Below are positions 124-12,291 of a stretch of 54,565 bases of DNA, one piece after another. Source of the stretch: Bacillota bacterium (GTDB taxonomy: Bacteria; Bacillota_I; Bacilli_A; RF39; UBA660). Both the position numbers and the translations under genes were made by a program. Location: NCBI GenBank assembly GCA_015059445.1, contig SVAK01000006.1:1-54565 (forward strand), written 5' to 3'. Position 1 is the first letter of the stretch; every line of letters starts with the position of its first letter. The notes beneath the pieces were generated by a model. That model was not told where the DNA came from. It saw nothing but the letters and a program-made list of their open reading frames with translations, and ran no database searches.

Positions 124-600
124 ATGTGGTCTCTTATTTTTTTCTTTATGAATGTAATGAACATTTTGTCGTTCATTTATCCATTCCTTGTTGAGTTTGA
201 TGTTAGAATGAATGTGCTTAAATTAAAGGGAATTGTAAGCATTAAGCTTTTTAATAAAATCAAATTTGAATTTAGAATTAGAGTAAAACATGGATACATT
301 TATATTAATCATAAAAACAAATTAAGGAAAGAAAAAATTAGTAATAAAAATGTTAATTTAGTTTTTATTATGAAATTAATAAATCAATTGTATTTTAGAG
401 AGCAATTTTTGAAGTTTTTTGTTAAATCAAATTTTGGTTACTCTGAAGATGCCTGCGTTACCGCTGTAGCCTCTGGAAACATTGATATATTTACAAAAAT
501 GTTTTTGGGAAAAATTAAAAATGTTCGCTTTACAGAAAAAAAGTTTTTTTCCTTTTTCTCTAAAAAAAACATTGCAATAAATTTAATGGTATGGGTATAA
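124..600 (+). CDS. DUF2953-like (YtfI-type) hypothetical protein
   Basis: A 158-residue basic protein with a hydrophobic N terminus (about residues 1-22), suggesting one membrane segment. The stretch FGYSEDACVTAVASGN near residue 105 resembles the DUF2953 signature, in which a Gly-x-x-Asp-Ala segment is followed by a small-residue helix. In Bacillota such genes often sit next to sporulation gene ytfJ or scpB. The start is uncertain: no clear ribosome site precedes ATG 124, and later in-frame ATGs exist. The nrd promoter overlaps its 3' end. Function is unknown and the family match is tentative. Confidence 0.45.
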   Translation: MWSLIFFFMNVMNILSFIYPFLVEFDVRMNVLKLKGIVSIKLFNKIKFEFRIRVKHGYIYINHKNKLRKEKISNKNVNLVFIMKLINQLYFREQFLKFFVKSNFGYSEDACVTAVASGNIDIFTKMFLGKIKNVRFTEKKFFSFFSKKNIAINLMVWV

Positions 601-601
601 T
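572..601 (+). promoter_or_regulatory. Promoter of the nrd operon
   Basis: A -35 TTGCAA (572-577) and -10 TATAAT (596-601) are separated by 18 bp, overlapping the stop of the preceding gene. The start at ATG 632 follows with AGGTG about 8 bp upstream. Confidence 0.55.
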
Positions 602-631: not shown

Positions 632-2617
632 ATGAAAGAGGACATTTTAAACGATTTAGTCGTAGTAAAAAGAAGCGGTCAAAGAGTGTCCTTCAATGCT
701 CTTAAAATAGCAATTGCAATAAAAAATGCTTTTGATCAAATAGCAATAGCTAATTCAGAAAAAAAAGTTAATTATATTTATAATGAAGTTTTACAATATA
801 TAAGAGATAATTATAAAGGAAGAAAAACAATTAATGTAGAAGATATTCAAGATATCATAGAAACAAAGTTGAAAGAAAATAATTTTGAAGAAATTTATAA
901 AACTTTTAATGAATATAGATTACGAAGGGCGATTTCTAGAAAAGCATTTAATTTAAAACATCAACATAAGTTTACAAAGGCAATCGAAAGAATTGCTAAT
1001 GAAAGTTCAGAAAATCATTACATAAATAGTTTTCCTAATGATATATTGCTTAATTTTGGAAAAACCATCTCTTGTGAATATGCTAAAAATTATATTTTAG
1101 ATAGTAAAATAGTTAGAGCACATGAAGAGGGAAGTATATATATACATAATTTAGATTATTTTTGGTTAGGAAAAATATCTTCAACAAATATTATTATTAA
1201 TGATAATTTATTAAAAGATTTTCCCAATAACTTTATTGCATCACTATTAAGTTTGAAAAATGAAATAGACGGAGAGATAGCAATTAATAAATTAGATAGT
1301 TTATTAAAACCTGTTATATTAAAAGAATTTAAAAAACTTCTAAAAAAACATATTAAAATGTATCTTAAAATTACAGGGATAATTGAATATATAAACATAA
1401 AAAAGATAAATGAAACGATTGAGAAAATAACTACTTTGAATATGGACGAAAAAATATTTAAAGAGTTTATTTTAAACAAAAATATAGAAAACATATTTAT
1501 AGAAGCAATAGATGATAGCAAAGAACAAGTAGAATTATTTATTCAAAATGGAATTAGAGACATATTGATAATTTTAAATAATAACTATCATGAAAATAAA
1601 AAATATTCTATTAGTTTATGTACTGGAAGTAGTTTTGAAGAATTGTTAATAAATAATAAATATATAGAAGAATTAGAAAATTTAAATTATTTGGAAAATA
1701 TTACAACAATAATCAAAATTAAAAAAGATAATAATGTTGAATTGATGAAAAGAGTATATAATTTAGTTTTAAATAAGAAAAACATAGCATTTGCATTTTG
1801 TGAATCAGCGGTTAATAAAGATAAAAAAGAATTAGTAGAGTATTTTGGTGATGGAAAAAGAATTTTTGATAATCTCAATGGTGAATTTAGAGGTTCAACT
1901 GGTCGAATGATTATTTCAACAATATCGATAAATATGGCAAGATTGGGAATAATCAATGAAAATAAAAAAATCGAAGATTTTTATAAAAATTATACCGAAG
2001 TTTTAAATTTATCAAAAAACGGTCTTGTAAGTATTTTTGAAATTATTGGCGATAAAACTAAGAAAAATTATCGAGAAATTTTTAAGGATAATATTATTGA
2101 TGATGGTAAGTTAGAATATAATCAAACAATTAGAAAAGTCATAAAAAGAGGTGTTTTAAATTTAGAATTGGCTGGTTTGAAAGAATGTGTTTTAAGTTTA
2201 ACTGCCGAGGAAAAATTACAGAAAAAACTTTTAAAAGATATAATTTGTTTTGCTAAAAATAAATGTGAAGAATTTAGTAAAGAAACAAAATTAAATTTCA
2301 TAGTGGGCGAAACTAGTAAATTTAGGCCGTTAAAAAAATTAATTGAGTTAGATAAAGTTATATATGGTGTAAAGTATAATATTACTGACAAGAAAAATTA
2401 CGAAAGAATTGATAGTATGTTTCGTTTTAAAAAAGATATTAATGATGACTTAATTCAAATGGGTGAATATCAAAAACATTTATCTGGAGGTAATTTGTTG
2501 AAAATTAAATTAAATAAGAATATAAAAATAAAAAATATAATAGAAATATTAGAATTGTGTAAAAAAAGTAATATAGGTTTTGTTAAATTTGTTATAGGTG
2601 AAGAGGTAGAATTATGA
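632..2617 (+). CDS. Degenerate NrdD paralogue with ATP-cone (no radical or thiol residues)
   Basis: A 661-residue protein. The N terminus (about 10-100) is a full ATP-cone, the nucleotide-sensing regulatory domain of ribonucleotide reductases. The remainder aligns with the class III RNR barrel: AHEEG..YIHNLD matches the AHRNC..LHLHDL segment of the true NrdD downstream, and FRGSTGRMIISTISINMAR matches its GSTGSIGVVTINMPR. Key residues are missing: the YCAGW cysteine of NrdD is lysine here (K181 by ungapped alignment), no Cys-Cys pair corresponds to the SMCCRL motif, and the protein ends soon after the SGG-type segment, before the zinc cysteines and glycyl-radical loop. It cannot be a working reductase. 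Its stop overlaps nrdG by 4 bp. Start chosen at ATG 632. A regulatory or scaffolding role with NrdD is possible. Confidence 0.75.
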   Translation: MKEDILNDLVVVKRSGQRVSFNALKIAIAIKNAFDQIAIANSEKKVNYIYNEVLQYIRDNYKGRKTINVEDIQDIIETKLKENNFEEIYKTFNEYRLRRAISRKAFNLKHQHKFTKAIERIANESSENHYINSFPNDILLNFGKTISCEYAKNYILDSKIVRAHEEGSIYIHNLDYFWLGKISSTNIIINDNLLKDFPNNFIASLLSLKNEIDGEIAINKLDSLLKPVILKEFKKLLKKHIKMYLKITGIIEYINIKKINETIEKITTLNMDEKIFKEFILNKNIENIFIEAIDDSKEQVELFIQNGIRDILIILNNNYHENKKYSISLCTGSSFEELLINNKYIEELENLNYLENITTIIKIKKDNNVELMKRVYNLVLNKKNIAFAFCESAVNKDKKELVEYFGDGKRIFDNLNGEFRGSTGRMIISTISINMARLGIINENKKIEDFYKNYTEVLNLSKNGLVSIFEIIGDKTKKNYREIFKDNIIDDGKLEYNQTIRKVIKRGVLNLELAGLKECVLSLTAEEKLQKKLLKDIICFAKNKCEEFSKETKLNFIVGETSKFRPLKKLIELDKVIYGVKYNITDKKNYERIDSMFRFKKDINDDLIQMGEYQKHLSGGNLLKIKLNKNIKIKNIIEILELCKKSNIGFVKFVIGEEVEL

Positions 2618-3300
2618 TTATAAGTGGTTTTCAAAAATTAACTTTATTAGACTATCCTAATAAAACAGCGTGTTTATTATTTACGCAAGGTTGTAATTTT
2701 AAATGTCCATTTTGTCATAATAAAAGTTTGCTGGAAAATAGTTCATCAAATGAAGTAATAGATGAAGAAGAAATATTTAAATATTTGGACAAAAGAAAAA
2801 ATGTTTTAGATGGGGTTTGTATTAGTGGTGGGGAGCCATTATTGCAAAAAAATATAGAAATTTTTATAAAAAAAATAAAAGAAAAAGGTTTTTTAGTAAA
2901 GCTAGATACAAATGGAAGTTTTCCAGGAAAATTAAAATGGCTCATTGATAATAATTTAGTAGATTATGTGGCAATGGATATAAAAAATAATTTTTTCAAT
3001 TACAAAAGTGCATCTGGAATCGAGAATAACAATATAGAAAATATAAAAAAGAGTATTAGTATTTTAGAAAATTCTAATATAGAACATGAGTTTAGAACAA
3101 CTGTAGTAAAAGAAATACATGATTTAGAACAAATTGAAAGTATATGCAAATATATTGGTGTGAATACAAAATATTATCTTCAAAATTTTGAAGATAATGG
3201 TACAGTTTTACAAAAAGGATTAAGTGGTTTTGAGAAAAAAGAGTTACAAAATATTGTAAATAAATTAAAAAATACATATCCAAATATAGAGGTAAGGTAA
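2614..3300 (+). CDS. nrdG: Anaerobic ribonucleotide reductase activase (radical SAM, NrdG type)
   Basis: This enzyme cleaves S-adenosylmethionine to install the glycyl radical on NrdD. The 228-residue protein has the radical SAM cluster motif CNFKCPFC (CxxxCxxC) near residue 27, a GGEP motif near residue 72, and the MDIKNNF segment typical of the NrdG2 group. It overlaps the upstream paralogue by ATGA and is followed by nrdD after a 24-bp gap, so the three are co-transcribed. Length and motifs are normal. The only ambiguity is whether it also acts on the upstream paralogue, which has no glycyl-radical site. Confidence 0.9.
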   Translation: MIISGFQKLTLLDYPNKTACLLFTQGCNFKCPFCHNKSLLENSSSNEVIDEEEIFKYLDKRKNVLDGVCISGGEPLLQKNIEIFIKKIKEKGFLVKLDTNGSFPGKLKWLIDNNLVDYVAMDIKNNFFNYKSASGIENNNIENIKKSISILENSNIEHEFRTTVVKEIHDLEQIESICKYIGVNTKYYLQNFEDNGTVLQKGLSGFEKKELQNIVNKLKNTYPNIEVR

Positions 3301-3324
3301 TATTGAAAGGAAGGTAAAGGGAAT

Positions 3325-5661
3325 ATGTACAAAGTAAGAAAAAGAGAAGGAAAAATTGTAGCATTTGATATAAAAAAAATAGCTAATGCTATAACAAAAG
3401 CTTTTGAAGCTGAAAACAAAAATTATGATGAAGGAGTTATTGATTTCTTAGCATTAAAAGTAACAGCAGATTTTGAAAGCAAAGTTGTTGACAATATAAT
3501 TAATGTAGAAGATATTCAAGATAGTGTAGAAAGTGTTTTGATTAAAGCTGGATATGCAGATGTGGCCAAAGCTTATATCTTATATCGTCGTTTACATGAT
3601 AAAATGCGTAATATGAAATCAACTATTTTAGATTATAAAGAGGTAGTTAATAGTTATGTTAATGTAACAGACTGGCGCGTTAAAGAAAATTCAACAGTTA
3701 CTTATTCTGTTGGAGGATTAATATTAAGTAATTCAGGCGCCATAACTGCAAATTATTGGTTAAGCGAAGTGTATGATGATGAAATAGCAGATGCTCACCG
3801 TAATTGTGATTTACATTTACATGATTTATCAATGCTTACAGGTTATTGTGCTGGATGGAGCTTAAAACAATTAATTCAAGAAGGGCTTGGTGGTATTCCT
3901 GGAAAGATTACATCAGCACCTGCAAAACATTTATCAACGTTATGTAATCAAATGGTTAATTTTTTGGGAATTATGCAAAATGAATGGGCTGGAGCTCAAG
4001 CGTTCTCATCATTTGATACATATTTAGCCCCATTTGTTAAAAGTGACAATTTAACTTATAAACAAACTAAACAATGTATACAATCTTTTGTTTATGGTGT
4101 AAATACTCCAAGTCGTTGGGGAACACAAGCTCCATTTACAAATGTTACATTAGACTGGGTAGTACCAAACGATTTAGCAGAATTAAATTGTATTATTGGT
4201 GGCAAAGAAGTTGATTTTAAATATAAAGATTGTCAAAAAGAAATGGATATGATTAATAAAGCATTTATTGAAATAATGATTGAAGGCGATGCGAATGGTA
4301 GGGGATTCCAATATCCAATTCCAACATATTCTATAACTAAGAATTTTGACTGGTCTGAGACAGAAAATAATAAATTGTTATTTGAAATGACAGCAAAATA
4401 TGGAACTCCTTATTTTTCAAATTATATTAATAGCGATATGGAACCAAGTGATGTTAGAAGTATGTGCTGTAGATTAAGACTGGACTTAAGAGAGTTAAGA
4501 AAAAAATCTGGAGGATTTTTCGGTAGCGGAGAATCAACTGGCTCAATTGGGGTTGTAACAATAAATATGCCAAGAATCGCATATTTATCAAAAAATGAAA
4601 AAGATTTTTATGAACGTTTAGAACAATTAATGAATATTGCTGCTAGAAGTTTAAAGATAAAGAGAAATGTTATAACTAAGTTATTAAATGAAGGCTTATA
4701 TCCTTACACAAAAAGATATTTAGGATCATTTGAAAATCACTTTTCAACTATTGGTTTAGTTGGTATGAATGAAGCATGTCTTAATGCTAAATGGATTAAT
4801 ACAGATTTGACAAATGAAGAAGCTCAAAAGTTTACACAAGATGTTTTAAATTATATGCGTGAAAAATTATCTGATTACCAAGAAGAATATGGAGATTTAT
4901 ATAATTTAGAAGCAACACCTGCTGAATCAACATCATATCGTTTTGCTAAGAAAGATAAAAATTTATATCCAAATATTATTACAGCATCATCTGAAAATGA
5001 AACTCCATATTATACAAATAGTTCTCACTTACCAGTTGGTTATACTAATGATTTATTTGAAGCTTTAGATATTCAAGATGAATTGCAAACTCTATATACT
5101 TCAGGGACAGTATTCCATGCTTTCTTAGGAGAAAGATTAACTGATTGGAAAGCAGCAGCTAATTTAGTAAGAAAAATAGCAGAAAATTATCGTCTTCCTT
5201 ATTATACTTTATCTCCAGTTTATTCTGTATGTAGAAATCATGGATATATAAATGGAGAAGTTAGCAAATGTCCGACTTGTGGTGAAGAAGCAGAAGTTTA
5301 TAGTAGAATTACCGGGTATTATCGACCAGTAAAAAATTGGAATGATGGTAAAACACAGGAGTATAAACATAGAAAAACTTATGATGTGAAATGTTCAAAA
5401 ACAAAGGCTAAAGATAAAATAGAAAATGATTGTATTATGCTTTTTGGCACTAAAACATGTCCTAATTGTAAGGTAGCAGCTCAATTATTAGAAAAAGCTC
5501 ATGTAGATTATAAATTTATTGATGCTGAAGAACAAACAGATTTAACAAAAAAATATGGTGTTAAACAAGCGCCTACATTAATTGTTGTGACAAATGGTAA
5601 ATCAGAAAACATTGTTAATTTATCAAATATAAAAAAACATATTGAGGATTTTAAAATCTAA
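3325..5661 (+). CDS. nrdD: Class III ribonucleotide reductase with fused glutaredoxin domain
   Basis: Reduces ribonucleotides to deoxyribonucleotides by glycyl-radical chemistry without oxygen. Order in the 778-residue protein: ATP-cone (about 3-95), RNR barrel with LHLHDL..GYCAGW (C175) and SMCCRL (C381-C382), the SGTVFH segment, a zinc site (C636, H639, C649, C652), then the glycyl-radical motif RITGYYRP (G664). Unusually, about 85 further residues follow: a glutaredoxin/thioredoxin-like domain with CPNC (C712, C715) and a QAPT cis-proline segment. Thioredoxin reductase begins on the last base of its stop codon. Known NrdD2-type enzymes use a redoxin rather than formate as reductant, so this fusion probably carries its own electron donor. 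AAGGAAGG lies about 13 bp before ATG 3325. Confidence 0.92.
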   Translation: MYKVRKREGKIVAFDIKKIANAITKAFEAENKNYDEGVIDFLALKVTADFESKVVDNIINVEDIQDSVESVLIKAGYADVAKAYILYRRLHDKMRNMKSTILDYKEVVNSYVNVTDWRVKENSTVTYSVGGLILSNSGAITANYWLSEVYDDEIADAHRNCDLHLHDLSMLTGYCAGWSLKQLIQEGLGGIPGKITSAPAKHLSTLCNQMVNFLGIMQNEWAGAQAFSSFDTYLAPFVKSDNLTYKQTKQCIQSFVYGVNTPSRWGTQAPFTNVTLDWVVPNDLAELNCIIGGKEVDFKYKDCQKEMDMINKAFIEIMIEGDANGRGFQYPIPTYSITKNFDWSETENNKLLFEMTAKYGTPYFSNYINSDMEPSDVRSMCCRLRLDLRELRKKSGGFFGSGESTGSIGVVTINMPRIAYLSKNEKDFYERLEQLMNIAARSLKIKRNVITKLLNEGLYPYTKRYLGSFENHFSTIGLVGMNEACLNAKWINTDLTNEEAQKFTQDVLNYMREKLSDYQEEYGDLYNLEATPAESTSYRFAKKDKNLYPNIITASSENETPYYTNSSHLPVGYTNDLFEALDIQDELQTLYTSGTVFHAFLGERLTDWKAAANLVRKIAENYRLPYYTLSPVYSVCRNHGYINGEVSKCPTCGEEAEVYSRITGYYRPVKNWNDGKTQEYKHRKTYDVKCSKTKAKDKIENDCIMLFGTKTCPNCKVAAQLLEKAHVDYKFIDAEEQTDLTKKYGVKQAPTLIVVTNGKSENIVNLSNIKKHIEDFKI

Positions 5662-6563
5662 TGCATAGTGTATATGATGTTGTTATAGTAGGGTGTGGAC
5701 CAGCGGGGTTAACCGCTGCAATATATTGTGCTCGAGCAAACAAAAAAGTTCTTATTTTAGAAAAAGAAACAATAGGAGGGCAGATGTCATCTGCTCCTCT
5801 TATTGAAAATTATCCAGGATTCAATAGCATTTCTGGTAGCGAACTTGCCAATTATATGTATGAGCAAGTAGTATCGCTAGGAGTAAATATAGAATTAGAA
5901 GAAGTAAAAGAAATAAAAGTAGCCGATAAAAAAACGGTAGTAACAGAAGATAATGAATATGAAACTAATGCTGTAATAATTGCAACTGGTTCAAAATATC
6001 GTTTGTTAGGATTAGAAAATGAAGAACAATTAATTGGAAATGGTATTCATTTTTGCGTTTCGTGCGATGGTGCATTTTATAAAAATAAAACTGTTGCAGT
6101 TATTGGAGGTGGAAATAGTGCTGTTATAAATGCGTTAGCTTTAAGTGAACTTTGTCAAAAAGTATATTTAGTTCAAAATCTAAGTAAATTAACAGCTGAG
6201 CAAATATTGATAGACAAATTAAATTCTAAAAGTAATATTGAAATTTATGCATCCACCACGGTAAAAAGAATTGTTGGTGATGCCGAATTAGAAAAAATTA
6301 TTCTTGATAAGAATAGTGTTCTAGAAGAATTAATAATAGATGGAATGTTTGTTTCAATTGGATTGATCCCACAAACTGATAGTGTAAAAAATATTTTGGA
6401 TATCAACGATTATGGGTATATCACTGCTGAAAATTGTATTTCAAAAATACCTGGAATTTTTGTTGCTGGTGATTGCCGTGATAAAAAAGTAAAGCAAGTA
6501 ACAGTTGCAGTAAGTGATGGAACCATAGCAGCAATTAACGCAATCGAATATTTAAATAATTAA
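5661..6563 (+). CDS. trxB: Thioredoxin reductase
   Basis: A 300-residue FAD/NADPH enzyme that reduces a dithiol redoxin. It shows the FAD-binding GCGPAG near residue 11, the redox-active CVSCDG pair in the middle, the NADPH-binding GGGNSA and the C-terminal GDCRDK FAD motif. Length is slightly short but complete. Its ATG shares one base with the nrdD stop (TAATG), implying translational coupling. The most economical partner is the CPNC domain fused to NrdD next door, though a general role in thioredoxin reduction is not excluded. Confidence 0.9.
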   Translation: MHSVYDVVIVGCGPAGLTAAIYCARANKKVLILEKETIGGQMSSAPLIENYPGFNSISGSELANYMYEQVVSLGVNIELEEVKEIKVADKKTVVTEDNEYETNAVIIATGSKYRLLGLENEEQLIGNGIHFCVSCDGAFYKNKTVAVIGGGNSAVINALALSELCQKVYLVQNLSKLTAEQILIDKLNSKSNIEIYASTTVKRIVGDAELEKIILDKNSVLEELIIDGMFVSIGLIPQTDSVKNILDINDYGYITAENCISKIPGIFVAGDCRDKKVKQVTVAVSDGTIAAINAIEYLNN

Positions 6564-6749
6564 TACATGGTATACTTTTTGATTTCTATCACCAAAGAAT
6601 TCTTTAATATCAACTTCTAAAACACGTGCTATAGTACAGCTATACTAAAAGATTGCTGTACTTTTTTTGATTCAATATTACTTATTAAAGTATGACTTAA
6701 ATCACATTTTTCTGCTAGTTGTTCTATCATCTGCTGGATTAAACTTCAT
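6552..6749 (-). pseudogene. Broken XRE-family helix-turn-helix regulator
   Basis: On the minus strand an ATG with an upstream AGGTGG reads MKFNP and then loses frame. A second frame gives a recognisable helix-turn-helix core (QLAEKCDLSHTLISNIES). A third frame supplies the end (IARVLEVDIKEFF). At least two indels therefore break the gene, and part of helix 1 seems deleted. It overlaps the 3' end of trxB by 12 bp. It is the remnant of a small XRE repressor, probably from a lost mobile element or toxin-antitoxin locus. Confidence 0.6.
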
Positions 6750-6871
6750 ATAGAACACCACCTATATATATATTATCTCATTTATTATAGATTTTTTCTG
6801 CAATTAATTGAATCAAATTTATGGTTAATAATAGAAGAGGTTTTGATTTCAGCGAAGTTCACTTATAACTA

Positions 6872-7589
6872 GCCACTCAAAACACTTATGATTATGGCCG
6901 TAGTAATTTTAATAGAGTCAAAGACTATGGAGGAACATTTTATATATTATTAGCGTATGTTATGAATTCTTGGGAACCTGTGTCAGAAGTTTCTTTGCCG
7001 TTTTCTAGACTTACGAGTTTATATAAAGATGAAGAAATAGTTAATAAAAGTGCTTTAATTGATATAAACTCTATTGTACAGCTAGGGAATGAGGGTAGTT
7101 GTAGTAATAATACCATAAATGATATGAGTATCTGTACTAATGGATTTTTAGCTAAAAAATAATTATAACTGATGATCAATTTAGCATATTCATTAAATTA
7201 TCAGATAATGTTCAAAATAACAGGTTTTATTTGGAGCATCTCAAAAATTTATTGGAGTCATGAATGCGAGAACAATATATAATAATATTGAATTTGAAGA
7301 AGGTGTGCAATTTATATCTATTGATGGTATAAACTATGCAGATGTTATTACAAGTTTAACTAAATTTCAATTATCAATAAAAGCATATACTAGTGCTACG
7401 ACAAAAGAACTGGCTCCTGTAACTCCTGAACATGTGGATAATCCTTAAGAACCAATCACGCCTTCGGAAAATCCAGACTCAACACCTAAAGATGATAAAA
7501 TTAATACAGATAGAAAAATTGAGGTAGAAGAAAATGATTATAACAAAGAGAAACTAAACTTGCTTTTTTGCCCCAAAAAGTGGTTATAA
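6872..7589 (+). pseudogene. Decayed surface-protein-like gene remnant
   Basis: Short coding pieces run in different frames: one around 6880-7162 (contains NFNRVKDYGGTFYI and ends after FLAKK) and one around 7220-7589 (contains EEGVQFISIDGINYADV). The second is cut by TAA 7446-7448, after which a Pro/Ser/Asp-rich linker continues in frame to TAA 7587-7589. Proline-rich linkers near the C terminus are common in Gram-positive surface proteins. No domain was recognised. The stretch has no convincing ribosome site and looks like an eroding accessory gene. Confidence 0.4.
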
Positions 7590-7647
7590 ATCCTAGAATT
7601 ATTGCTTTTTTAGAATTTTTAGGTATATAATTAATTGAGTGATGTTT

Positions 7648-8361
7648 ATGAAAATAGGAATACTAGATTCAGGCATTGGAGGTTTAACTGTACTAAAGTC
7701 TTTGCTAAGAAAATGTCCTGATCACGAATATATTTATTATGGAGATACAATTCATCTACCATATGGTGAAAAAAGTAGAGAAGAAATTATTGGTTATGCA
7801 AATAATATAATAAATTTTTTTGAATCTGAAAATATTGACTTAATTATTATAGCGTGTGGCACTTTAAGTTCAAATAAAGAATTTTTAAAGAGCAAAAAAA
7901 GACTGATTGATATAATATCACCACTTAAGGGGAAATTAGACAATTATAATAAAATAAGTATAATGGCAACACCTTTAAGTATTAAAACTAATGCATTTAA
8001 GAAATATATAAATACAAAAATTGATTTAATTTCATGTCCAAAATTAGTTCCTATAATTGAAAGTGAAGATTATAGTGATTTAGATAATGTTCTAGAGAAA
8101 TATTTAGAGAATTCTATTGATAGTGATGCACTTATTTTGGGATGTACTCATTATCCCATAGTAAAAGATAGTATAATAAAATTTTTTAACAAGGAAATAA
8201 TTTGTTTAGATAAATTTGTGGTAGAAATGCTATCCGAATTAAAACCGGGGAAAAGTAGTTTAAAATTATATTTTAGTAAGATTGATGAAATTTTAATAAA
8301 GAATGTAAAAAAAATATTAGAGATAGATAATCTTAATATAGAAAGAAAGTGGTTAAAATGA
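7648..8361 (+). CDS. murI: Glutamate racemase
   Basis: Converts L- to D-glutamate for peptidoglycan. The 237-residue protein has the N-terminal DSGIGGL motif, a first catalytic cysteine in IIACGTLSS near residue 71, and the second in LGCTHYP. In the usual family motif the first cysteine is followed by Asn-Thr; here it is Gly-Thr. The protein is also somewhat shorter than the usual ~260. Two upstream in-frame starts (GTG 7639, ATG 7642) exist; ATG 7648 has the best spacing to GAGTG. It overlaps murD by 4 bp, forming a D-glutamate supply and ligation pair. Confidence 0.85.
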   Translation: MKIGILDSGIGGLTVLKSLLRKCPDHEYIYYGDTIHLPYGEKSREEIIGYANNIINFFESENIDLIIIACGTLSSNKEFLKSKKRLIDIISPLKGKLDNYNKISIMATPLSIKTNAFKKYINTKIDLISCPKLVPIIESEDYSDLDNVLEKYLENSIDSDALILGCTHYPIVKDSIIKFFNKEIICLDKFVVEMLSELKPGKSSLKLYFSKIDEILIKNVKKILEIDNLNIERKWLK

Positions 8362-9680
8362 TTGAAAATAAAAAAATATTAGTATTAGGAATGGCCAGAA
8401 GTGGTTATCATGTAGCAAAGTTACTTGCTTCTAAAAATAAAATTATTGTTACCGATAGAAGCGAACAAAAAGAAGAATTAGTTAATGAACTAACTAATTT
8501 AGGAGTAACGTTTATTAAAAACGATACAGGAATTGAATTGCTGGATGATTCTATTGATTTATTAATAAAAAATCCAGGAATTGAGCCAACTCATCCTTGT
8601 GTAAAAAAAGCTATGGAATTGGGAATTCCTATAGTAAATGAAATGGAAGTCGCATATCATTATTTACCAGCAAATACAAAAATTATTGGAATTACTGGTT
8701 CCAATGGAAAAACAACTACAACAACAATATTATATAATTTATTAAAATTACATAATATTGATGCTATTTTAGGGGGAAATATTGGTTATCCGTTAAGTGA
8801 AGTAGTTGCCACTGTTAAAGATAATTCTGTATTAGTTTTAGAAATATCGGATCATCAATTATTTAATTTGCAAAGGTTTAAAACTGATATTAGTATATTA
8901 ACTAATTTATGTCCAACTCATTTAGATTTTCATGGAAATTACGAAAATTATATTAATGTTAAAAAGAAAATATTTAATCATCATGATGAATCAAATAAAG
9001 CATTTATTAATTTTAAAAATGAGGACAGTTTGAAAATTACTAAAGATATTAAAAGCAAAAAAATATATTTTAATAATGAAGCTAATTATTATGATGAAAA
9101 AGGAATATATATTGATGGTGAATTAGTTGTTTCATTAAAAAATATAAAAATTAAAGGTAGTCACAATTATGAAAATATTCTGGCTGCTTTGATGGGGCTC
9201 AAAGAATTTGCTTTTGATAAAGAAATAATTAAAAATTATTTACAAAATTTTAATGGAGTGGAACATCGTATTGAAGTAGTTGATGCCAATATAGAAGTTG
9301 ATTTTTATAATGATTCTAAAGCAACTAATCCAACTTCTACGTTAACAGCATTAAAGACTATGACTAAACCAACCAGATTAATTCTTGGAGGAATGGAAAG
9401 AAATCAAGATTTTAATGAATTGAATGATGAAATAAATATTGTTTCTTGTATTTATGCTATCGGAGAAGTTACTGATAGAATAGCTGAATATGCGCTTAGC
9501 AAAAACATACAATGTGTTAAATGTTATACTTTAGATAAAGCGATGGAATACATAAAGAAAGATCTAGTTAATGGAGAAGCAGTTTTATTATCTCCAGCGA
9601 GTGCATCTTGGGATCAATATGATAAATTCGAAACCCGAGGAGAAGAATTTAAGAAATTGGTTGAAAATTTATTTGAATAA
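8358..9680 (+). CDS. murD: UDP-N-acetylmuramoyl-L-alanine--D-glutamate ligase
   Basis: Adds D-glutamate to UDP-MurNAc-L-Ala in the cytoplasm. The 440-residue protein has an N-terminal Rossmann-type segment (VLGMARSG), the Mur ligase P-loop GITGSNGKTTT, the central LTNLCPTHLDFHG motif and the C-terminal NDSKATNP and LSPASASWDQY motifs. Length is normal. ATG 8358 was chosen over GTG 8349 because it overlaps the murI stop as ATGA, and GAAAGAAAGTGG precedes it. The preceding enzyme makes its D-glutamate substrate. Confidence 0.95.
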   Translation: MIENKKILVLGMARSGYHVAKLLASKNKIIVTDRSEQKEELVNELTNLGVTFIKNDTGIELLDDSIDLLIKNPGIEPTHPCVKKAMELGIPIVNEMEVAYHYLPANTKIIGITGSNGKTTTTTILYNLLKLHNIDAILGGNIGYPLSEVVATVKDNSVLVLEISDHQLFNLQRFKTDISILTNLCPTHLDFHGNYENYINVKKKIFNHHDESNKAFINFKNEDSLKITKDIKSKKIYFNNEANYYDEKGIYIDGELVVSLKNIKIKGSHNYENILAALMGLKEFAFDKEIIKNYLQNFNGVEHRIEVVDANIEVDFYNDSKATNPTSTLTALKTMTKPTRLILGGMERNQDFNELNDEINIVSCIYAIGEVTDRIAEYALSKNIQCVKCYTLDKAMEYIKKDLVNGEAVLLSPASASWDQYDKFETRGEEFKKLVENLFE

Positions 9681-9689
9681 AGTTATAAT
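9661..9689 (+). promoter_or_regulatory. Promoter inside the murD end
   Basis: TTGAAA (9661-9666), 17-bp spacer, TATAAT (9684-9689), upstream of the Ig-like membrane protein. Confidence 0.6.
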
Positions 9690-9719
9690 TGTTATAGTAG
9701 TAAAAGGGGCTATGATAAT

Positions 9720-11090
9720 ATGAACGATAATGGGAATAACAACTTAAATGGAACTATTTTAGGTAATGTCGATAATAATCAAAATTTAACTACTAGTTCA
9801 ATTTCTAACGATGATGTGGAAACTTTAGATAGTGGAATGGTAAATACAAATAATACAATGACGGATAGTCAAATGTCTAATCAAAATTTATCATCGCAAT
9901 CACAAAATACATTTTTTACTAACCCTCCGATAAGTGACAATGTTATAAGCAATCAAAGCGGAATAAATGAAACACCACACAGTCCCGCGACTATTGTAAA
10001 TGAAGTGCCACCAATAATTGAGCCAACACCAGCATATACTAATCTTCAGAATATTAACCCAAATCCAATGCCTGGATTTGAAGCGCCAGGAACAATTGGC
10101 ACAACACCTCCAATTTCTTTTGAACCAGAAAAGAAACCGAAGAAAAAATCGAATAAAATATTGTTTATTATAATTGTATTAGTGGCTTTGGCAGCAGTAG
10201 GATTTGGTACATATTATGTTTTAAATTATACCGATTTATTAGAAGAAAAAGAACAAGTAACTGTAACCATTAAAGATTTACAATATAATCTTGGAGATAG
10301 CTTATCTGCAAATATTAACGATTATGCAGCTATATCTGGGACAGATACTAGAAATTGTAGTTTAAATACAACAAATGTTAATGTAAATGCGCTGGGAATT
10401 TATGAGTATACAATTACTTGTGGAGATATAGTTAAGACTGGAAAAGTAACTATTGTGGATAATACTAAATTGGTTGTAGAGACAAAAGTGGTTTATAAAG
10501 TCAAAGGTGATACAATTGAAGCCAGTGAATTTGCTAAAGAGACTGATGAAACTTTAACTTTTGAATTTGTAGAACCTGAAGTTGTAAATAATTTATTAGC
10601 CGGAGATGCAGGTAATTATACTATTAAATTAAGAGTTACTTCTCAAAATAATAAAGTTGCTGAAGTGGAAGCATCATTAATAGTAACTGAATATGCAATT
10701 AAAGGATATTATACTTGTTCATCTGAAGGACAAAATATTACAGATTCAAGTGCTGTTATGACAGTATCTGAACAATTTGCAATAGTAAATGATGGTAATA
10801 ATGGTTATGGAAAAATTGCTTATGAAATTTATAGTTTCAAATTTAGTGATGAAACAGAATATACTAGTTATTTAGCATCGTATAAAACAGATAATAGTAT
10901 TACTATTAATAATATTACTGGTGATACAGAATTTAATGATGAAACTTTGACAATTACGATAACAAATCCTAAAGCAAATGATTTAGTAATTAGTGAATAT
11001 GGTGAAACTAATATGGAAAAATATCAAACTATAAGAGAATATTTTACCAACATTTTGGGATATACATGTGTATACAGAGTTCAAGAATAA
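9720..11090 (+). CDS. Membrane-anchored protein with Ig-like extracellular domain
   Basis: A 456-residue protein of unknown function. Residues 1-130 are Asn/Ser/Thr/Pro-rich and probably disordered. A basic KKPKKKSNK stretch precedes one transmembrane helix (about 147-167), so the N terminus is likely cytoplasmic and the rest outside. Residues about 178-330 look like bacterial Ig-like repeats: YNLGDSLSANINDY, paired cysteines, a GIYEYTITCGD strand and a TGKVTIVDN end. The C-terminal part (about 340-456) also has two cysteines and resembles no family I can name. There is no sorting signal. It has its own promoter and a terminator over its stop codon. Confidence 0.65.
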   Translation: MNDNGNNNLNGTILGNVDNNQNLTTSSISNDDVETLDSGMVNTNNTMTDSQMSNQNLSSQSQNTFFTNPPISDNVISNQSGINETPHSPATIVNEVPPIIEPTPAYTNLQNINPNPMPGFEAPGTIGTTPPISFEPEKKPKKKSNKILFIIIVLVALAAVGFGTYYVLNYTDLLEEKEQVTVTIKDLQYNLGDSLSANINDYAAISGTDTRNCSLNTTNVNVNALGIYEYTITCGDIVKTGKVTIVDNTKLVVETKVVYKVKGDTIEASEFAKETDETLTFEFVEPEVVNNLLAGDAGNYTIKLRVTSQNNKVAEVEASLIVTEYAIKGYYTCSSEGQNITDSSAVMTVSEQFAIVNDGNNGYGKIAYEIYSFKFSDETEYTSYLASYKTDNSITINNITGDTEFNDETLTITITNPKANDLVISEYGETNMEKYQTIREYFTNILGYTCVYRVQE

Positions 11091-11113
11091 TTTTTATAAT
11101 TATTCTTTTTTTT
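11083..11113 (+). terminator. Rho-independent terminator
   Basis: A 10-bp perfect stem (11083-11092 with 11098-11107), with the stop codon inside it, followed by a T run. Confidence 0.8.
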
Positions 11114-11141
11114 GGTTATTAAAATTTCATCAAAATTATGT

Positions 11142-11147
11142 TATAAT
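11142..11147 (+). promoter_or_regulatory. -10 element for the cysteine desulfurase
   Basis: TATAAT ends 19 bp before ATG 11167. TTAAAA 17 bp upstream is a weak -35. AGGTGA follows at about 11158. Confidence 0.4.
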
Positions 11148-11166
11148 TTCCGCAATAGGTGATTTT

Positions 11167-12291
11167 ATGATTTATTTAGATTACAGCGCAACTACTCCTG
11201 TAAATAGAGAAGTATTAGATAGTTTTAATAGAGCATCTCTAGATTTTGTTGGAAATACTAATTCTTTACATAATCTTGGTGTTAATGCTAGCAGACTTGT
11301 GAAAAGTGCAACTAAGCAAATTTCGGATATATTAAAAATAAAAGAAACGGAAATAATTTATACTAGTGGATCATCAGAATCTAATAATTTAGCTATAAAA
11401 GGAATATGCCTAAAGTATCAAAATCGTGGCAAACATATCATAACAACAAAATTTGAACATTCTTCTATTTATGGTCCACTTGATTACTTAAAAAAATTAG
11501 GTTTTGAAGTAAGTTATGTTGAATCTAATAAAGATGGAATAATAGATTTAGATAATTTAGAGTCATTAATTAGAGAAGATACCATTTTAGTTAGTATCAA
11601 TGCAATTAATAGCGAAATAGGAATTAGGCAACCCATTGAAGAAATTGCTATTATACTAAAAAAATATCAAAAATGTTTTTATCATGTGGATTTAACTCAA
11701 GCTCTAGGAAAAGTGGAAATTAATTTAGATAATATTGATTTAGCATCTTTTTCGGCTCATAAAATATATGGATTAAAAGGTATTGGTTGCTTGATAAAAA
11801 AAGAGAATATTTTATTAGAACCTTTAATACATGGAGGAAAATCAACAACTGAGTTTAGAAGTGGAACTCCAGCACATCCTTTAATAGTATCTTTATCTAA
11901 AGCTTTAAGATTAGCAAATAAAAATTTAGTTGAAAATTATCAATATGTCCAAGAGTTAAATATATATTTAAAAAATAATTTGAATAAATATTTAGATGTT
12001 TGTATAAATAGTAATGAAAAATGCATACCGCACATTTTAAATATAAGTATATTAGGTGTTAAAGCCGAAACATTTATGCATGCATTAGAAAATCATAGCG
12101 TTTATGTATCAACTAAATCAGCGTGCAGTGATGAAGATGTTTTAAGTGAAACAGTTTTGGCTTTAACGAATAATAAAGAAAAAGCTAAGTCTAGTATTAG
12201 AATTAGTTTATCGTATTTAACTACGAAGGAAGAATTAAAAGAGTTTTTAATAATATTTGATAAGTGTTATAAAAATTTAAAAAGATTTTAG
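11167..12291 (+). CDS. Cysteine desulfurase (NifS/IscS-like)
   Basis: A PLP enzyme that takes sulfur from cysteine for Fe-S clusters or tRNA thiolation. The 374-residue protein opens with the typical IYLDYSATTPVN, has TSGSSESNN and EHSS segments, the PLP lysine in FSAHKIYG, and the catalytic cysteine in STKSACS near the C terminus. The start was placed at ATG 11167, with AGGTGA upstream, because the family begins here. No scaffold (IscU/SufU) or thiI gene is adjacent, so its partner lies elsewhere. Assignment to IscS, NifS or CsdB subtypes is not possible by eye. Confidence 0.9.
   Translation: MIYLDYSATTPVNREVLDSFNRASLDFVGNTNSLHNLGVNASRLVKSATKQISDILKIKETEIIYTSGSSESNNLAIKGICLKYQNRGKHIITTKFEHSSIYGPLDYLKKLGFEVSYVESNKDGIIDLDNLESLIREDTILVSINAINSEIGIRQPIEEIAIILKKYQKCFYHVDLTQALGKVEINLDNIDLASFSAHKIYGLKGIGCLIKKENILLEPLIHGGKSTTEFRSGTPAHPLIVSLSKALRLANKNLVENYQYVQELNIYLKNNLNKYLDVCINSNEKCIPHILNISILGVKAETFMHALENHSVYVSTKSACSDEDVLSETVLALTNNKEKAKSSIRISLSYLTTKEELKEFLIIFDKCYKNLKRF

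Follow-up and report, generated by a model that had tools for sequence, protein, structure and literature searches.

We report that the first gene of the nrd operon in the analysed stretch of DNA (the window; 54,565 nucleotides) encodes a paralogue of the class III ribonucleotide reductase NrdD, which is predicted to be catalytically dead and which is maintained together with its ATP-cone; 57 distinct versions were found in one family of small-genome gut Bacilli. "NrdX" is our working name for this product of positions 632-2617. Our data suggest that NrdX is probably a dedicated regulator of a working enzyme. Specifically, the reading that we favour, and to which we give an even chance, is that it is a pseudoenzyme retained in order to sense ATP/dATP in trans on behalf of the resident class III reductase; the fuller version, i.e., a dedicated ATP/dATP-sensing subunit made from a gutted catalytic paralogue and reused with live reductase subtypes, with activity control in trans and NrdR lost, we place just short of evenly balanced. 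In ribonucleotide reductases, the control of overall activity usually resides in the catalytic chain itself or in the radical subunit. If our reading is correct, class III reductases would have a regulatory subunit in the form of a conserved dead NrdD whose one remaining site is the activity site; moreover, NrdX would offer a natural way to study ATP-cone action apart from catalysis, and would show by what means gut bacteria with small genomes and no NrdR might regulate their dNTP pools. Our literature search, which covered open papers, found no description of an NrdX-like protein.

The NrdX frame begins with the ATG at 632 and stays open for 661 codons until its stop at 2617, and the nrdG2 ATG at 2614 creates a 4-bp overlap; the open frame and the overlap, both noted in a preliminary description of this DNA, were re-derived from the sequence. 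The operon order is NrdX-NrdG2-NrdD (thioredoxin-fused)-TrxR, with NrdX first and almost no gaps between the genes. The features are:

572..601, + strand: promoter-like TTGCAA-N18-TATAAT just 5' of the operon, tentative (consensus scan)
632..2617, + strand: NrdX, 661 aa, predicted to be catalytically dead and NrdD1-derived (ORF call, Pfam, motif census)
659..928, + strand: NrdX ATP-cone (a-site) with ligands K13, R14, Y95, R99 and R103 all kept (Pfam PF03477, residue mapping)
1013..2590, + strand: degenerate NrdD barrel core of NrdX, lacking active-site cysteines, flap, s-site hairpin, zinc site and radical domain (Pfam NRDD at residues 128-653, motif census, AlphaFold2)
2614..3300, + strand: nrdG2, radical-SAM activase (TIGR02495), translationally coupled to NrdX (ATGA overlap)
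3325..5661, + strand: catalytic class III reductase of the NrdD3/PRK08270 type with ATP-cone, catalytic cysteines, zinc site, RITGYY glycyl loop and C-terminal thioredoxin-like domain (profile matches, motifs)
5661..6563, + strand: thioredoxin reductase-like flavoprotein (TrxR), the final operon gene (profile matches)

The promoter-like site is weak because such sites are no commoner in the region than in shuffled sequences. A 158-aa ORF with no Pfam match lies immediately 5' of NrdX (window 124-600).

Pfam gave matches to the ATP-cone (E 6.7e-12) and to NRDD (PF13597; E 2.7e-31, 109 bits versus a cut-off of 26.2), and the homology of NrdX to NrdD is therefore not due to chance; the same matches bear out the earlier statement that the ATP-cone and the NrdD core are kept, and by homology NrdX is assigned to the NRDD fold family. 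The closest NCBIfam model was the PRK07111 type (E 1.2e-50), which NrdX matches well short of the curated cut-off; the best PDB sequence match was the Prevotella copri NrdD, the nearest solved structure (8p23 series). The AlphaFold2 model (mean pLDDT 84, pTM 0.76) has a confident core with the cone attached via a low-confidence linker.

Relatives were collected within the family of the host genome, and 57 distinct NrdX were aligned with 27 intact NrdD1; residues are numbered as in P. copri NrdD (Pc) via the alignment to intact NrdD1, and residue roles were taken from the P. copri NrdD structures (PMC11226230). In the window NrdX, Pc C171 is replaced by Ser184 and Pc C416 by Asp407 (the partner and thiyl-radical cysteine sites, respectively), and both cysteines are replaced in 57/57 NrdX. 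The residue in place of the first catalytic cysteine is Ser184 and not Lys, as the preliminary description had it, while the "Cys-Cys pair" noted there as lost (MCCR in the neighbouring NrdD) is indeed gone. The zinc site and radical loop are absent, also as described, and all 57 sequences lack the zinc cysteines and the C-terminal glycyl-radical domain. The losses exceed those listed before: all 57 sequences have also lost the NxN flap and the specificity-site hairpin and have a shortened loop 2, and the TPxE loop and the triphosphate-binding HxHD motif are degenerate, the latter reading YxHN in the window and having its first His replaced in 56/57. A separate ORF that could supply the radical domain, as for the split NrdD1 described below, was considered and rejected, there being no room between NrdX and nrdG2. 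On cysteine, radical/zinc, substrate and specificity-effector grounds alike, NrdX is predicted not to work as a class III reductase.

The cone residues K7, R8, Y83, R87 and R91 (Pc), which hold the two nucleotides (ATP/dATP) in Prevotella NrdD (PMC11226230), are kept in all 57 NrdX (K13, R14, Y95, R99 and R103 in the window, R99 and R103 being just beyond the Pfam match). The PF03477 match and the five ligands taken together identify the domain as an ATP-cone (a-site). Mean pairwise identity among NrdX is 62% for the cone versus 36% for the core, the reverse of the order in catalytic NrdD1 (71% and 81%, respectively), indicating that selection in NrdX has shifted onto the cone. Some core positions are nearly invariant, including Glu215, a derived residue present in 54/57 NrdX at a position where NrdD1 has an invariant Gly. 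The nucleotide-sensing role proposed earlier for NrdX thus gains indirect support, through the invariant ligands and the cone being the most conserved part.

Estimates of dN/dS were restricted to unsaturated pairs, leaving out distant, saturated ones, and for NrdX they range between approximately 0.08 and 0.22 in close pairs (≈75% identity or more), i.e., in the same range as NrdG2 and TrxR, with the catalytic NrdD3 evolving slower (mostly 0.03-0.1). The NrdX frame is open throughout the collected set (for genome G094 the full open frame was seen both in the ORF list and by alignment-based search) and the order NrdX-NrdG2-NrdD3-TrxR is conserved among relatives. The spacing between NrdX and NrdG2 varies from -38 to +7 bp in 57 loci and is exactly -4 in 32 of these; NrdG2 and NrdD3 are usually separated by a 3-31 bp gap. 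A degeneration restricted to the window genome was rejected, the 57 distinct sequences coming from many genera. That NrdX is maintained and not decaying, as the preliminary description held, is hence strongly supported: the 57 orthologues, all predicted to be inactive, are under purifying and not relaxed selection, and relatives with intact residues belong only to the parental NrdD1 lineage. At one locus (L098:7971-13938) NrdX and NrdG2 are 98-99% identical to those of L090/L095, with NrdD3 only at ≈83% and TrxR at ≈43%, a difference that reflects either a chimeric assembly or recombination inside the operon.

In a tree rooted on NrdD1 of another Bacilli family (from a quick search, with SH-aLRT as the sole support measure), the 30 tested NrdX form one clade inside the NrdD1 of the host family, beside a group with split NrdD1; the phylogeny indicates that NrdX arose from a catalytic NrdD1 within this family. 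In a set of 395 genomes of the class, NrdX-like short frames at E 1e-90 were seen in the host family alone. The copy in genome G005 (L136) is a long branch, and its grouping with the NrdD1 of L026 has a slightly better likelihood (p-AU 0.58); this dead NrdD may be an independent second inactivation. Within the genus of the window one chromosomal place (murD side, two further shared genes) carries either NrdX-NrdG2-NrdD3-TrxR, as in the window, or NrdD1-radical domain-NrdG1 (G088, G243, G241), and therefore one reductase operon replaced the other in place. The murD side is likewise conserved, with the nrd operon type swapped, when window positions 632-12291 are compared with L258 and L049. Most relatives are metagenome assemblies, and in individual cases, for example G241 with its NrdX plus NrdD1, contamination may play a part.

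Of the 20 family genomes with NrdD3-Trx, 17 have NrdX or a dead NrdD1, versus 1 of the 125 without it (Fisher 3e-18, relatedness uncorrected), and NrdX adjoins catalytic NrdDs of three types. In a second NrdX group (≈650-700 aa), the NrdX gene is head-to-head with one for an E. coli-type NrdD in G004, G146, G168, G184, G245, G298 and G322, and head-to-head with NrdG2-NrdD3-TrxR in G218; at L086, NrdX directly precedes the start of an NrdD1 that retains its first cysteine and runs off the contig. The dead NrdD of G005 and the NrdD3-Trx cassette are on different contigs. A hetero-oligomer partner of NrdD, as suggested in the preliminary description, would agree with the operon structure and with NrdX being linked to three types of NrdD. 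The cassette occurs without NrdX in three family genomes (G038, G082 and G137), and NrdX was absent from the ten NrdD3-Trx cassettes examined in other Bacilli families; NrdX is therefore not universally needed. G038 has an intact second NrdD. The E. coli-type NrdDs of G137 (L175:2506-4491) and G082 (L188:4858-6894) keep the thiyl-radical cysteine and end before the glycyl-radical loop, and are either decaying or on a parallel route to a radical-less paralogue. The fusion of NrdD3 to a C-terminal thioredoxin/glutaredoxin-like domain is common across other Bacilli families.

NrdX and NrdD3 carry the only two ATP-cones of the window genome (1.02 Mb, 95% complete); a search of 18 genomes gave exactly two in 17 and three in G241. 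No class I or II reductase was found in the window genome, and NrdD3 is therefore the only reductase found there. The NrdD3 cone (window 3325-5661) has a His at the R87-equivalent position. That NrdX compensates for a damaged NrdD3 cone was rejected: the same His occurs in several NrdD3-Trx outside the family and in those without NrdX, so this change does not track NrdX. No NrdR match was obtained in the window genome, and NrdR was below the cut-off in 144 of 145 family genomes, with only G130 passing; G072 carries an NrdR remnant with stops beside nrdD.

What NrdX retains fits a sensor and what it has lost belonged to an enzyme; together with the purifying selection, the operon coupling, the linkage to reductases of three types, and the lack of NrdR and of any second reductase in the window genome, this speaks for a trans-acting ATP/dATP sensor. 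Having lost all parts for substrate, specificity effector and radical, NrdX would have been retained for its ATP-cone, which presumably binds ATP/dATP, and the remaining barrel would act as an oligomerisation platform. Tetramer formation in Prevotella NrdD is driven by dATP-loaded cones, which contact both cores and other cones (PMC11226230); cone-cone or cone-core contacts of NrdX could make the neighbouring NrdD (here NrdD3-Trx) follow the ATP/dATP ratio. In its simplest form, NrdX would offer cones in trans to NrdD3 as a dATP-triggered brake, with the sign of the effect presumed. We infer both the physical partner (NrdD or NrdG2) and the direction of the effect. That NrdD3 has a cone of its own counts against the trans-acting sensor, as do the NrdD3-Trx cassettes that lack NrdX and the separate contigs in G005.

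NrdX might instead bind NrdG2 as an ancestral NrdD would, its cone gating the free activase available for forming the NrdD3 glycyl radical. This is the main rival and we regard it as unlikely: NrdX-NrdG2 is the tightest pair in the operon, but loci with an E. coli-type NrdD next to NrdX have a different, NrdG1-like activase, NrdX and NrdG2 are divergently oriented in one genome, and in Prevotella NrdD bound dATP does not prevent the glycyl radical from forming (PMC11226230), which leaves control at the activation step without precedent. A free ATP/dATP sensor acting on a non-reductase target, e.g. nrd transcription in place of NrdR, would agree with the near-complete lack of NrdR in the family and with NrdR too sensing via an ATP-cone (PMC11226230). 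However, NrdR is equally missing in relatives without NrdX, so its loss does not track NrdX, and a replacement of NrdR by NrdX was rejected for this want of correlation across the family; moreover, no DNA-binding domain, including an NrdR-type zinc ribbon, was found in the 661-aa NrdX (Pfam, NCBIfam; NrdR has ≈150 residues), and a 540-residue barrel is an odd carrier for a free sensor, which makes this explanation quite unlikely.

A structural or assembly partner of the reductase (chaperone, scaffold) without sensing would account for the well-predicted barrel and for the near-invariant core positions, among them the derived Glu215, but conservation peaks in the nucleotide pocket of the cone rather than in the core, and we strongly doubt this alternative. 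Conserved polar core residues (E149, K159, D222, N434, R437, R501, E518 and D574, with E215 being new) could point to a new enzymatic activity; nearly all are shared with NrdD1 and may be structural, and with the HxHD motif and TPxE loop degenerate such a gain is very improbable. A decaying pseudogene carried with the operon would explain the fast-evolving core, and the truncations of the second NrdD in G082 and G137 before the glycyl-radical domain imply that redundant NrdDs do decay; the open frames, invariant ligands and conserved coupling argue against it for NrdX, and the purifying selection contradicts it, leaving it hardly credible.

Among known systems, the PRK07111-type NrdD1 is closest in having the best NCBIfam match and the same order of ATP-cone and NRDD, and NrdX nests in the family NrdD1; it differs in that NrdX lacks the cysteines, flap, s-site hairpin, intact loop 2, zinc site and radical domain. 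NrdR resembles NrdX as a stand-alone ATP-cone reporting nucleotide state, but has a zinc-ribbon DNA-binding domain and a small size, neither of which applies to NrdX. The class I reductase large subunits of betaherpesviruses are catalytically dead and have a signalling role; as in NrdX the reductase fold is kept after catalysis is lost, but these viral proteins have no bacterial operon with a live reductase. The Leeuwenhoekiella NrdB (5olk; PMC11226230) also has an activity-sensing cone on a non-catalytic polypeptide, but there the carrier is a functional radical subunit, whereas NrdX is a dead catalytic paralogue.

Finally, the catalytic NrdD1 of the host family is mostly split: the main chain terminates behind its zinc-site CPxCGR, and a separate ORF of 50-80 aa, immediately 3' of it and ahead of NrdG1, carries the glycyl-radical motif RIRRITGYLVG..DRFNNAK (L049:7762-10852, also L016, L018, L050, L101-L131 and L256-L261). 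From its motifs this represents a predicted two-piece class III reductase, for which no paper was found in our literature search; NrdD1 is unsplit in the outgroup and in some family members (L026, L027, L210-L214).
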